A DNA stretch of 64,000 nucleotides from Saccharopolyspora aridisoli. GTDB taxonomy: Bacteria > Actinomycetota > Actinomycetes > Mycobacteriales > Pseudonocardiaceae. A program made the position numbers and the translations under genes. The stretch spans positions 124,001-188,000 of the forward strand of contig NZ_SMKV01000003.1 in the NCBI RefSeq assembly GCF_004348445.1, written 5' to 3'. A model generated the notes under the pieces. It ran no database searches, was not told where the DNA came from, and worked only from the letters and a program-made list of their open reading frames with translations. Of the stretch, positions 18,256-22,226 are shown in pieces. Each line of letters starts with the position of its first letter. The stretch's first letter is position 1.

Positions 18256-19125
18256 GTGGATGAGCAGGGGGCGGCGTTGCTGGGACCGGCCGACGTGCGT
18301 CGGCTGGCCGACGAGCTGGGCATCAGACCGACCAAGAAGCTCGGTCAGAACTTCGTGCACGACCCGAACACGGTGCGGCGGATCGTCTCCGCGGCCGAGG
18401 TCGGCCCGGACGACGTCGTGCTGGAGGTCGGCCCGGGTCTGGGCTCGCTGACGCTCGCGCTGCTGCCGATCGCGGGAGCCGTCACCGTCGTGGAGATCGA
18501 TCCGGTGCTGGCCGAGCGGTTGCCGCGCACCGCGCGCGAGTTCGCGCCCCAGCTGGCCGACCGGTTGAGCGTGCTGCCCTCCGACGCGCTGCGGGTCCAG
18601 GCCGCCGACTTCCCGCAGCCGCCGACGGCGTTGGTCGCCAACCTGCCCTACAACGTCGCGGTGCCCGTGGTGCTGCACCTGCTGGCCGAGCTGCCGAGCC
18701 TGCGCAAGGGACTGGTCATGGTCCAGTCCGAGGTCGCCGACCGGATGGCCGCCGAGCCCGGCAGCCGCGTCTACGGGGTGCCGAGCGCGAAGGCGGCCTG
18801 GCACGCCGACGTGCGCCGCGCGGGCCCGGTGCCGCGCAAGGTGTTCTGGCCGGTGCCGAACGTGGATTCCGGGCTGGTGTCCTTCCACCGCGTCGACCCG
18901 CCGTCGAGCGCCTCGCGGCAGGACGTCTTCCGGGTGGTGGACGCCGCCTTCGCGCAGCGGCGCAAGACGCTGCGCGGCGCGCTGTCCGGTTGGGCCGGTT
19001 CGGCGGCGCGGGCGGAGGAGTTGTTGCGCGCGGCCGGAATCGACCCGACGACGCGCGGAGAGCAGTTGCGCATCGCCGATTTCGCCCGGATCGCGGAGGT
19101 CGCGTCATCCGGTTCGGGCAGCTGA
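18256..19125 (+). CDS. rsmA: 16S rRNA dimethyladenosine transferase (A1518/A1519)
   Basis: 289 residues. Motifs of the KsgA family: [25 protein letters not shown] motif [27 protein letters not shown], and the catalytic [15 protein letters not shown]. It dimethylates two adjacent adenines in helix 45 of 16S rRNA during small-subunit maturation. GTG 18256 is preceded by TAGGTT at 7 nt and begins [22 protein letters not shown]; the longer upstream frame would cross the dispersed repeat. In many actinobacteria rsmA is followed closely by ispE; here the methionine transporter locus intervenes. Confidence 0.96.
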
Positions 19126-19300
19126 ACCACTCGTCCGGCGGCTTGCGGCCACGCGCTGCTACATCACTGAGGGTGATGAAAACGCCACCCCCTGCCGAAG
19201 AATTCCCGCTCCACTCGGTATGTGACGTGACAAACGATTCCGGTCGGTGACCGCTATCAGCTTGCGCCGGGCCTGTCGATGGGGTCTACTGTTCAGGAAA

Positions 19301-19386
19301 TCCATCCCGAGCGGCTGAGAGACCTGGCTTGTTGACGCCGCAGCAACCACCCATCGCGGGCAGGTGCTAACGCCAGGACCGATGGA
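19301..19386 (+). ncRNA. SAM-I (S-box) riboswitch
   Basis: Conserved SAM-I elements in order: the P1 5' strand TCCATC (19301-19306), CCGAGCGGCTGAGAGA, the GGCTTGTTGACGCCGCAGCAACC core carrying the kink turn and pseudoknot partner, CAGGTGCTAA, GCCAGGACC, then the P1 3' strand GATGGA (19381-19386). It binds S-adenosylmethionine and lies upstream of the MetNIQ transporter, the expected target. The P1 3' strand overlaps the GGAG ribosome site (19384-19387) of a short ORF at 19393, so the switch probably controls translation initiation of that ORF: P1 forms with SAM and hides the site. Confidence 0.93.
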
Positions 19387-19392
19387 GTAGCT

Positions 19393-19521
19393 GTGGATTC
19401 CAACGCGCGGTTAGTCGGCAACGCCCGGTTCGAGGTACCCCACATCAGGGAACTGCTCACGCAGCGACGGTTCATCGACCACGGAAGGCGCACGACCTGC
19501 GCCTGTCGTCTCGAGATGTGA
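19393..19521 (+). CDS. 42-residue leader ORF between the SAM riboswitch and metN
   Basis: GTG start 5 nt after GGAG, which is sequestered in P1 of the SAM riboswitch. The peptide contains LLTQRRFIDHGRRTTCACR near its end. RRxxD...R then Cys-x-Cys resembles the short leader peptides found ahead of sulfur and cysteine genes in actinobacteria, whose Cys codons sense cysteine supply (family resemblance from memory). The two Cys codons (19498-19500 and 19504-19506) sit in overlapping alternative hairpins: AGGCGC/GCGCCT (19486-19504) and ACGAC/GTCGT (19492-19509). Codon 7 is TTA, rare in such GC-rich genomes. It may be a regulatory leader rather than a functional peptide. Confidence 0.6.
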   Translation: MDSNARLVGNARFEVPHIRELLTQRRFIDHGRRTTCACRLEM

Positions 19522-19615
19522 CCTGGCCCTTCCCCCTTCCTTTTTCCCTTAGAAGTTCCCCATGGCTGCTGCCCGAACGCGGGCGCGTCCATCGCGAGCT
19601 GATGTGGAGCAGATC

Positions 19616-20638
19616 GTGATCTCAGTCGAGAACCTGACCAAGTCGTTCCAGCACAACGGCAGCACCGTTCGCGCCCTCGACGGCGTGTCGATGGAGGTCA
19701 ACGCGGGTTCGGTGTGCGGCGTGGTCGGACCGAGCGGAGCGGGGAAGTCGACTCTGGCGCGGTGCGTCGCGCTGCTGGAGAAGCCCGACGGTGGTGCCAT
19801 CCGCGTCGATGGCACTGACCTGGTGTCGCTGGACGGCAAGGCGCTGCGCGCCGCCCGCAGGCAGATCGGGGTTGTGCCGCAAGGCGATTCGCTGCTCCGG
19901 CAGCGCACCGCCGCGGGCAACGTCGCGCTGCCGTTGGAGGCCGCCGGCATCGGCGGTCCGCAGCGGCGCAACCGCGTCGGCGAACTCCTCGACCTCGTCG
20001 GCCTGACCGACAAGGCGTCGGTCTACCCGGACCAGCTCTCCGGTGGTCAGCGACAGCGGATCGCCGTCGCCCGCGCGCTGGCGGCCAAGCCGTCGGTGCT
20101 GCTGGCCGACGAGCCGACCTCTGCGCTGGACCCGGCCACCACCGACTCGGTGCTGACCGTGCTCGACCGCGCGCGTGCCGAACTCGGCGTCACCGTCCTG
20201 GTGGTCACCCACGACATGGCGGTGGTGCGCAAGATCGCCGACGACGTCGCCGTGCTGGAAGACGGCCAGGTCGTCGAGCACGGCAAGGTCCTGGACCTAG
20301 TCGCCGAACCTGGTAGCAAGGTCAGCGGCACCCTGCTGCCCCCGACCGACCAGGCCGAGTCGCTGCGCCCGACCTCGGGCCGCCACGACGTGGTCGCCGA
20401 GATCGTGCTGGTCGGCTTCGCCGCAGTGGGAGCGCTGCTCCCCGAGGCCTCCAACCGGTTCGCCGTCGACCTGGCGATCCTGGGAGGTGGCCTGACCCGC
20501 CTCGGTGACACCCCGGTCGCCAAGTTCAAGATCGGCCTGACCGGTGAGCGTTCCGAGGCGGCGCTGAAGTGGATGATCGAGCGGGACGCGCACGTCCGGC
20601 GCGCCCCGGTGAGCGTTGACGGAGTTGCTGCTGCGTGA
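19616..20638 (+). CDS. metN: Methionine ABC transporter ATP-binding protein
   Basis: About 340 residues from GTG 19616, which has GGAG 6 nt upstream; ATG 19562 gives an 18-residue extension. Walker A GPSGAGKST, Q-loop VVPQGDSLL, signature [17 protein letters not shown], Walker B VLLADEPTSALDP, H-loop VTHDM. After residue ~250 comes a C-terminal ACT-like NIL domain (HDVVAEIVLVGFAAVGALLPEASNRF...), the methionine-sensing trans-inhibition domain of MetN. It energises uptake of L- (and D-) methionine with MetI and MetQ. Control is by the SAM riboswitch and probably the leader ORF upstream. Confidence 0.93.
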   Translation: MISVENLTKSFQHNGSTVRALDGVSMEVNAGSVCGVVGPSGAGKSTLARCVALLEKPDGGAIRVDGTDLVSLDGKALRAARRQIGVVPQGDSLLRQRTAAGNVALPLEAAGIGGPQRRNRVGELLDLVGLTDKASVYPDQLSGGQRQRIAVARALAAKPSVLLADEPTSALDPATTDSVLTVLDRARAELGVTVLVVTHDMAVVRKIADDVAVLEDGQVVEHGKVLDLVAEPGSKVSGTLLPPTDQAESLRPTSGRHDVVAEIVLVGFAAVGALLPEASNRFAVDLAILGGGLTRLGDTPVAKFKIGLTGERSEAALKWMIERDAHVRRAPVSVDGVAAA

Positions 20639-21318
20639 CTGATGTGACCCCCTGGTCGGAGGTCGGCGAACTACTGGGCGAGGCAACGCTCGAAACGCTC
20701 TACATGGTGCTGGTGGCGACCGTGCTGGCCGTGGTCGGCGGGTTGCCGCTGGGTGTGCTGCTGCACCTGACCTCTCCGGTCGGGTTGAACCCGAAACCGG
20801 TTCTGAACAAGGTGCTCGGCGTGATCGTGGACGTGGTGCGCTCGGTGCCCTTCGTGGTGCTCCTGGTTGTGCTGGCGTCGTTCACCCGGCTGCTGATCGG
20901 GACCTCGATCGGCAGCAGCGCGGTGATCGTGCCGTTGACCATCGGTGCGATCCCGTTCTTCGCGCGGCTGACGCAGAACGCGTTGCGCGAGGTCGGTTTC
21001 ACCGTCGTGGAAGCTGCGATCACGACCGGTTCCAGCAGGCTGCGGATCGTGTGGACGGTGCTGCTCGGTGAGGCCCGGGCCGCGCTCGTCGGAGCCGTCG
21101 GCGTCACCGCGGTGGCGCTGATCGGCTACGCCGCGATGGCCGGCGCCATCGGCGGCGGTGGCCTGGGCACGACCGCGATCCAGGACGGCTACCAGGGCTA
21201 CGACGACCGGATCCTCTACGGATCCGTCGTGGTGCTGGGGATGCTGGCCTTCGCGATGCAGCTGATCACCGACCGCACCGCCAAGCTCGTCGATCGCCGG
21301 CGCACCGCCGCCGGCTGA
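20635..21318 (+). CDS. metI: Methionine ABC transporter permease
   Basis: 227 residues with five to six membrane spans. The ABC permease coupling loop reads EVGFTVVEAAITTGSSRLRIVWTVLL. MetI forms a homodimer in the membrane with MetN below and MetQ delivering substrate. GTG 20635 overlaps the metN stop by 4 bp (GTGA), so translation is coupled. Confidence 0.95.
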   Translation: MTDVTPWSEVGELLGEATLETLYMVLVATVLAVVGGLPLGVLLHLTSPVGLNPKPVLNKVLGVIVDVVRSVPFVVLLVVLASFTRLLIGTSIGSSAVIVPLTIGAIPFFARLTQNALREVGFTVVEAAITTGSSRLRIVWTVLLGEARAALVGAVGVTAVALIGYAAMAGAIGGGGLGTTAIQDGYQGYDDRILYGSVVVLGMLAFAMQLITDRTAKLVDRRRTAAG

Positions 21319-21419
21319 CACTCGGGAACCAAACCCGTTTTCCCTCCCGCGTCCGTCCCACGAGGACGGTGCGCGGCCTCTGCCTGCCTGAGAACAGGCT
21401 CGTTGAAAGGACGCACGAC

Positions 21420-22226
21420 ATGCGTTTGCGCTTCGCCGCACTGCTCGCCTCGGCCGGGGTTCTGCTGGCCGCCTGCGGTGGTGGTTCCGCCGCCGAAGAC
21501 CCCAACGCGCCGCTGAAGATCGGCGTCAGCCCGACGCCGCACGGCGAGGTCCTGCAGTACGTCGACGACAACCTGGCCCAGCAGGCCGGGATCGACATCG
21601 AGATCGAGAAGTTCGACGACTACAACCGGCCGAACGAGGCCGTCGCCAACGGCGAGCTGGACGCGAACTACTTCCAGCACGTGCCGTACCTGGAGGAGTA
21701 CCGCAAGGAGCGCGGCGGCGAGTTCACCTGGATCGAGCCGGTGCACCTGGAGCCGCTGGCCGTTTACTCCAAGCAGGCCAAGTCGCTGGCCGAGCTGCCC
21801 GCAGGCGCCACGGTGACGCTGTCCAACGACCCGGCCAACCAGTTCCGCGGCCTGAAGCTGCTGGAGCAGGGCGGGCTGATCAAGCTCGCGCCGGAGGCCG
21901 CCGTCGGCACCCGGCTGGACGCCGCCATCGCGGAGAACCCGAAGAACATCCAGCTCAAGGACCTGTCCCCGGACCAGCTGCCGCGTTCGGTCGACGACGC
22001 GGCCGCCGCGGTGGTCAACGGCAACTACGCGATCAAGGCGAAGCTGTCGAACCCGCTGCTGGTGGAGAGCGCGCAGGGCAACCCCTACGCCAACGGTCTG
22101 GTGACCAGCCCGGCCCTGGCCGAGGACCCGCGCGTGCTCAAGCTCGCCGAGCTGCTGCGCAGCCAGCAGGTCAAGGACTTCATCAACGAGGAGTGGGGCG
22201 GAGTCGCCGTCGTCCCGGCCTCCTGA
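21420..22226 (+). CDS. metQ: Methionine-binding lipoprotein
   Basis: 268 residues. Lipobox LLAAC with Cys19, then the NlpA/MetQ fold: LKIGVSPTPHGEVLQYV, FDDYNRPNEAVANGELDANYFQHVPYLEEY, EPLAVYSKQAKSLAELPAGATVTLSNDPANQFRGLKLL, and VNGNYAIKAKL. It captures methionine outside the membrane for MetI/MetN. It is third in the operon but separated from metI by 101 bp that contain two small hairpins (around CCGTCC/GGACGG and GCCTG/CAGGC), which may stabilise this end of the message. The site GAAAGGACG precedes ATG 21420. Confidence 0.94.
   Translation: MRLRFAALLASAGVLLAACGGGSAAEDPNAPLKIGVSPTPHGEVLQYVDDNLAQQAGIDIEIEKFDDYNRPNEAVANGELDANYFQHVPYLEEYRKERGGEFTWIEPVHLEPLAVYSKQAKSLAELPAGATVTLSNDPANQFRGLKLLEQGGLIKLAPEAAVGTRLDAAIAENPKNIQLKDLSPDQLPRSVDDAAAAVVNGNYAIKAKLSNPLLVESAQGNPYANGLVTSPALAEDPRVLKLAELLRSQQVKDFINEEWGGVAVVPAS

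Follow-up and report, generated by a model that had tools for sequence, protein, structure and literature searches.

Riboswitches and leader-peptide attenuators are usually presented as alternatives. The mgtA leader of Salmonella brings two inputs together on one leader RNA, Mg2+ and the proline-rich mgtL, one of them acting via the leader peptide. For cysteine, mycobacterial leaderless short ORFs with polycysteine tracts were reportedly the subject of a 2020 study by Canestrari. The accessible text of PMC13236596 cites Canestrari 2020 on polycysteine leaders, and pyrimidine motifs (polyY), which are not conserved, are described behind mycobacterial Cys leaders in the available part of Seliverstov 2005 (PMC1262725); such a pyrimidine tract is discussed as an anti-SD or a rut site in the accessible portion of D'Halluin 2026. 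In Streptomyces lividans, the available part of PMC8079986 describes a leader peptide, metL, whose codons include those for Cys and Met, in front of the same metNIQ operon that is considered here, and reports a SAM riboswitch at another gene set, that for threonine biosynthesis. Riboswitches which control the translation of a uORF are described in the accessible texts on two Mycobacterium tuberculosis systems, namely the B12 riboswitch with uPPE2 before the ppe2 operon (PMC11260477) and the Mg2+-responsive Mbox with the rv1805A uORF, where Rho is implicated (PMC12810186). Here we describe a locus of the soil actinobacterium Saccharopolyspora aridisoli, contained in a 64,000-nucleotide stretch of DNA that was analysed as a whole (the window), in which a SAM-I riboswitch and a putative Cys leader are combined upstream of metNIQ; the two elements are known separately.

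The SAM-I element and its leader ORF at metNIQ

The aptamer of the window clears the Rfam gathering cut-off and would be expected to bind SAM; a short ORF with Cys codons near its end follows, and metN, metI and metQ come next in this order on the same strand (Table 1). The GGA at the 3' end of helix P1 is shared with the GGAG of the short ORF, which straddles the end of the helix, and the coordinates given for this overlap and for the GTG start behind it in the preliminary description were reproduced in the sequence. The helix that is expected to be stabilised by the ligand thus overlaps a Shine-Dalgarno (SD) sequence, as in a translational riboswitch, and the overlap is conserved (see below). 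The distance from the leader stop to the metN start is 94 nt in the window and at least 70 nt wherever a metN start was recognised. The genome encodes Rho, and also a cystathionine beta-synthase, which scores above its cut-off; imported methionine could feed SAM and, via cystathionine beta-synthase, cysteine. A search for σ70 promoters found none in 19100-19700.

Table 1. Features of the SAM-I, leader and metNIQ region, in window coordinates
Feature	Position	Strand	Basis
SAM-I riboswitch aptamer (RF00162)	19299-19388	+	cmscan 59.7 bits, E 2.5e-11, cut-off 44.4
P1 5' strand UCCAUC	19301-19306	+	sequence and Rfam alignment
P1 3' strand GAUGGA, overlaps leader SD	19381-19386	+	sequence
Leader ORF Shine-Dalgarno GGAG	19384-19387	+	5 nt upstream of GTG 19393
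Putative Cys leader ORF, 42 codons, GTG start, MDSNARLVGNARFEVPHIRELLTQRRFIDHGRRTTCACRLEM	19393-19521	+	frame kept in 22/22 congeners; dN/dS 0.15
TTA, leader codon 7	19411-19413	+	TTA at codon 7 in 17/22 Saccharopolyspora leaders
First Cys codon TGC	19498-19500	+	Cys at that place in 6/22 congeners
Conserved Cys codon TGT	19504-19506	+	last Cys is TGT in 68/72 leaders
C-rich, G-poor tract (candidate rut or anti-SD)	19522-19561	+	position-specific peak, 72 loci; excess over controls
metN Shine-Dalgarno GGAG	19606-19609	+	sequence
metN, ABC transporter ATPase with NIL domain	19616-20638	+	Pfam ABC_tran and NIL; GTG start
metI, permease	20635-21318	+	Pfam BPD_transp_1
metQ, NlpA-type substrate-binding lipoprotein	21411-22226 (start provisional within listed ORF 21369-22226)	+	Pfam Lipoprotein_9

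The leader of the window ends in ..LLTQRRFIDHGRRTTCACRLEM, followed by a TGA at 19519-19521. Its assignment to the Cys-attenuator type in the preliminary description agrees with what was found, as it is short, under coding selection, has Cys codons near its end and lies upstream of a sulfur operon, and we infer that it works like an actinobacterial Cys leader peptide. The rarity claimed for the TTA at codon 7 was likewise borne out, with 5 TTA among 16664 codons in long ORFs of the window; this codon is a possible extra input via a rare Leu tRNA, or may serve RNA pairing. The start of the leader (19393-19420) is complementary to the SAM-I core in Saccharopolyspora (CCGCAGC with GCUGUGG or GUUGUGG), over a long stretch, and in the free fold of the window the two are predicted to pair with each other. 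The excess of this complementarity over shuffled sequences is weak (mean z -0.60 in 22 Saccharopolyspora and +0.05 in 49 other loci).

Conservation, coding constraint and distribution

Conservation was assessed in 61 genomes (that of the window and 60 relatives), 59 of which contain SAM-I, and in the 41 short-form SAM-I loci found with the covariance model (40 plus the window). An in-frame Cys leader is present behind P1 in 38 of these 41 loci, the exceptions being G023, G053 and G056, and the reading frame is conserved in 22/22 Saccharopolyspora, where frameshifts and stops in the ORF were looked for and none was found; both counts include the leader of G018, the frame of which was assigned by hand. 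Leader length in Saccharopolyspora ranges from 42 to 56 codons, with an N-terminal half that varies in both length and sequence. The overlap of P1 and SD was claimed for the window and extends to its relatives, with GATGGAG in 34 of the 38 leader loci found with the covariance model and GATGGGAG or GATGGGGG in the remaining four. In the wider set of 72 leaders, from which L111, L119, L121, L136, L152 and L184 were left out as judged duplicates of genomes already included, the GGAG lies 5-7 nt from the start codon in 51.

A wider view was obtained by scanning for loci that match a pattern of the aptamer end (GGTGCTANCGCCAGGNNCGATGGAG). The scan is blind to the downstream sequence and gave at least 117 named loci; since the pattern itself fixes GATGGAG, conservation of this heptamer was read from the covariance-model loci alone. 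Among the 117 matches listed, a Cys leader is present in 40, the element is immediately followed by an ORF of 90 codons or more in 50, and 27 are of other kinds. All 35 Pseudonocardiaceae loci among the matches listed, from 12 genera, belong to the leader class, and no member of this family is found among the 50 direct-ORF loci listed; the other five leaders among these matches are from Rhodococcus/Rhodococcoides (three), Plantactinospora and one actinobacterial metagenome genome. When other GGAG sites of the 117 listed loci were subjected to a near-identical test (with ORFs limited to 70 rather than 89 codons), only 14/8877 gave a leader vs 40/117 at the riboswitch GGAG, and one of the 14 is the leader of L079 read from an upstream start. 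In nine Saccharopolyspora loci (L019-L022, L024, L026, L028, L029 and L031) a long-form copy of SAM-I was also seen, behind which a frame opens with ATG within approximately 20 nt and no obvious Cys leader was apparent by eye.

The leader is under selection as a coding sequence. For a 17-codon block, dN/dS was 0.17 vs 1.79 and 3.45 in the other frames (60 motif-chosen loci with 52 distinct sequences, 12 of the 72 leaders being excluded as they do not fit the block), although the motif itself dictates approximately 10 residues, the Cys among them, so that dN/dS is lowered and the Cys of the block is trivially invariant. Because of this bias the calculation was repeated without motif choice on all 22 Saccharopolyspora (20 distinct sequences), anchored at the stop codon, and gave a dN/dS of 0.15 over the last 22 codons, the other two frames giving 1.65 and 2.95; over 26 codons in the same 22 Saccharopolyspora it was 0.21, with an overall range of 1.2 to 2.9 in the shifted frames.

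Only one Cys is broadly conserved in the leaders, and its codon is usually the rare TGT, which is absent from the last 22 codons in only 2/72 leaders and makes up approximately 10% of the Cys codons in long ORFs (18/185 in the window, 97/901 in the named loci). A motif search (RRHVD..AC) gave 30 further Saccharopolyspora loci (L190-L219) with 17 leader-like ORFs carrying the RRHVD motif, of which the L206 member looks doubtful, and no SAM-I match at the Rfam cut-off was found in the loci of these 17. As all 17 contain TGT, this codon is a general trait of Cys leaders and lends no support to the nesting; slow decoding or RNA pairing could explain the preference. Behind some leader-like ORFs of L190-L219 there is a GTCCACANNGGAC-like hairpin, which by eye was also seen behind some SAM-I leaders. 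With regard to known families, the leader of the window has no match to NCBIfam models NF042933, NF042934 or NF042936, and the cut-off of NF042934 (27) was reached by 3 of the 15 distinct leader peptides tested: L102 (41.8), L117 (27.3) and one without SAM-I (33.4).

The combination of SAM-I and Cys leader is not confined to metNIQ, as it is also found upstream of SBP_bac_5 genes in G025, where the SBP is of the oligopeptide type, and in Rhodococcus (L102), before an ABC permease in Rhodococcoides (L093), before an SBP_bac_3 protein in Plantactinospora (L117), and before a sulfite/nitrite reductase gene in the actinobacterial metagenome genome (L149). In G025, which represents another genus of the Pseudonocardiaceae, one copy precedes an FAD oxidoreductase (Pfam-tested) and a second unit a protein with 50% identity to it, and for a further copy the nearest long ORF, 307 nt behind it, encodes a luciferase-like monooxygenase; at least four units at different genes were seen in this genome (L064, L067, L071 and L072), while its sub-cut-off SAM-I G025:C30 was left out of the locus set. 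The Rhodococcoides permease has counterparts in Nocardia (L103 and L125, 74% and 76% identical) which directly follow the element, as does a stretch with 76% identity in L090, and to judge from the sequences the same permease gene thus occurs both with and without a leader behind the SAM-I element. In Rhodococcus sp. Leaf278 (L080), the SAM-I SD is followed by a 9-codon ORF with another Cys-rich sequence (MNICTCTHA), itself a leader candidate, and then by a permease that shares 86% identity with the L093 permease. Since GATGGAG stands directly before a long ORF in 50 of the 117 listed loci, the SAM-I element probably acts as a switch of a ribosome site and has changed its target.

Folding and sequence between P1 and metN

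Folding with P1 enforced, left free or forbidden was compared in 71 of the 72 loci, and gave a mean openness of the leader GGAG of 0.19, 0.26 and 0.26 in 22 Saccharopolyspora, and of 0.23, 0.39 and 0.41 in the 49 other loci. The direction fits an OFF switch, with a predicted effect that is small in Saccharopolyspora and modest elsewhere, and with no clean SAM on/off transition; as two-dimensional folding omits both SAM and tertiary energy, we take this as a reason for caution and not as a refutation.

Downstream of P1, the preliminary description had proposed two mutually exclusive hairpins at the Cys codons, a Cys-x-Cys end of the leader, and a ribosome at the Cys codons that governs downstream folding and so metN expression. 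Both hairpins can be drawn at the proposed places in the window, but they do not generalise, as the arms of the second hairpin (ACGAC/GTCGT) were found in only 6/22 Saccharopolyspora; the Cys-x-Cys end is similarly present in 6/22 and is not typical. Hairpins at the Cys codons are weak when compared with synonymous shuffles (mean z -0.55, with 33% below -1, 60 loci), and the five best-paired helices of five pairs show 0 or 1 double changes. The proposed effect on metN was not seen either: when the footprint of a ribosome was masked at one codon of the leader after another, the predicted openness of the metN SD changed by a mean of -0.04 to +0.03, and by +0.01 at the last Cys codon (50 loci), so that in folding the footprint does not open this site. 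A search for anti-SD duplexes gave no excess complementarity (mean z +0.24) in 58 loci, the 14 of the 72 without a recognised metN start being left out. The heptamer CCACATC, which pairs with GATGTGG at the metN SD, was considered as a general element and rejected: it occurs in 18/22 Saccharopolyspora leaders, is absent from G003, G009, G019 and G020, and none was seen by eye in three genomes from other genera (G026, G033 and G034). The leader end (TCGCGAGATGTG) is nearly repeated at the metN SD (TCGCGAGCTGATGTGG) in many congeners, and in the window the copy at the leader end (19510-19520) reads CTCGAGATGTG, with its counterpart at the metN SD in 19592-19607.

The stretch directly behind the leader stop is rich in C and poor in G. 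Over the first 30 nt, mean C minus G is 0.29 and the pyrimidine fraction 0.71 in the 72 loci, with C minus G falling to approximately 0 by 40 nt and the centre of the tract approximately 15 nt past the stop. This exceeds both 242 post-gene stretches and 186 upstream intergenic stretches, and a 24-nt window with at most two G is present in 43/72 loci vs 128/4680 random stretches. The tract may be anchored either to the stop codon or to the Cys codon, and it is weaker behind the 17 leader-like ORFs without SAM-I (C minus G 0.10 and pyrimidine 0.52 vs 0.21 and 0.66, over 50 nt). A scan of 19100-19700 in the window detected no intrinsic terminator, so that here a C-rich, G-poor stretch upstream of a gene is combined with the lack of such a terminator, as looked for in a Rho-dependent attenuator. 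The tract suggests Rho-dependent attenuation, which we prefer albeit short of proof, and it may alternatively be an anti-SD.

Regulatory readings and comparison with known systems

We infer SAM control of leader translation, cysteine sensing by the leader and an output through Rho, which together would make up a SAM-gated cysteine attenuator of metNIQ, a reading to which we assign a probability of roughly 0.6. At high SAM, P1 would be closed and the leader GGAG covered, leaving the leader untranslated and metNIQ expression low, while a drop in SAM would allow translation, with ribosomes reaching, near the end of the leader, the conserved Cys codon, which in most leaders is the rare UGU. If Cys-tRNA is ample, ribosomes would finish and leave at the stop codon, exposing the C-rich tract for Rho to stop transcription before metN; if it is scarce, a ribosome would pause near the stop and transcription would continue into metNIQ. 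The imported methionine would in turn supply SAM and, via cystathionine beta-synthase, cysteine. The two sensors would thus work in series, with cysteine shortage raising import only when SAM is low.

In favour of another output, in which the SAM-gated leader acts by translational attenuation and a ribosome stalled at the Cys codon frees the metN ribosome site from the pairing that conceals it, metN has its own SD, the GGAG of which is predicted to be mostly paired in many loci, and the available part of PMC13236596 cites such a mechanism for Cys genes of M. smegmatis; the near-zero mean response of the metN SD to a footprint at any leader codon, including the last Cys, and the lack of an anti-SD excess both argue against it, and we consider it unlikely. 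A relay from riboswitch to uORF without cysteine sensing, in which translation shields the RNA from Rho or delivers ribosomes to metN and the peptide is a relic, can draw on the ppe2 and pe20 loci of M. tuberculosis, where the accessible texts show riboswitch-controlled uORFs and, for ppe2, a uORF on which downstream expression depends (PMC11260477, PMC12810186). This relay leaves both the protein-level constraint at the C-terminus and the fixation of TGT unexplained, and with 94 nt between leader stop and metN in the window, and at least 70 nt elsewhere, stop-start reinitiation is improbable; we regard the relay as quite unlikely.

The low dN/dS (0.15 to 0.21) would also be expected if the leader were a small functional protein under riboswitch control with no role in cis, but the variable N-terminal half and the range of 42-56 codons within one genus do not fit this, and the conserved part is the Cys-leader motif that is also found in leader-like ORFs without SAM-I, making this a very improbable explanation. 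That high-GC DNA is rich in open frames would allow for an ordinary SAM-I switch followed by an ORF that is open by chance; given the coding selection and the leaders in 38/41 covariance-model loci and 40/117 listed loci as opposed to 14/8877 control sites, the likelihood of this is practically negligible.

Beyond metNIQ, we put at slightly better than even the chance that a hierarchical RNA gate for two metabolites is used repeatedly, with SAM-I licensing a leader that senses Cys-tRNA and the cysteine response of an operon requiring low SAM. If true, this would be a portable module that recurs across several actinobacterial lineages, at transporters of methionine, peptides and amino acids as well as at a sulfite/nitrite reductase, an FAD oxidoreductase and a flavin monooxygenase, and would give a likely job to tens of small ORFs that are conserved among actinomycetes. 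Instead of acting as alternatives, one of the two regulators would here control the sensing of the other, which predicts AND-type logic for SAM and cysteine, and the permeases of Nocardia and Rhodococcoides would provide a natural experiment in which a riboswitch gains a second sensor.

No description of SAM-I gating a Cys leader was found among the open-access matches listed, as judged from titles and the start of abstracts, with subscription papers mostly outside this search. In comparison with the SAM-I (S-box) family RF00162, the aptamer scores above the cut-off and an SD lies within reach of P1, in line with a translational switch, but the SD hidden by P1 here serves a Cys leader ORF and not a structural gene. 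With the actinobacterial Cys leaders (Seliverstov 2005, PMC1262725) and the mycobacterial polycysteine leaderless ORFs, the leader has in common that it is a short ORF before sulfur genes; a basic motif before Cys near the stop and the finding of no intrinsic terminator are also shared. It differs in being, by its sequence, SD-led and probably riboswitch-gated, whereas the polycysteine ORFs are leaderless, and in usually having one conserved Cys in place of the polycysteine tracts of mycobacterial attenuators. The S. lividans metL leader is also described as leaderless in the accessible text of PMC8079986, unlike the SD-led leader of the window. The Salmonella mgtA leader differs in both ligand and peptide. 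The ppe2 system of M. tuberculosis shares with our proposal a riboswitch acting on a uORF before an operon, but its type of stop/start overlap is absent here. While the ppe2 and Mbox uORFs are not described as amino-acid sensors in the available parts of PMC11260477 and PMC12810186, the uORF of the window looks like a cysteine sensor, which would place two inputs in series on one RNA.
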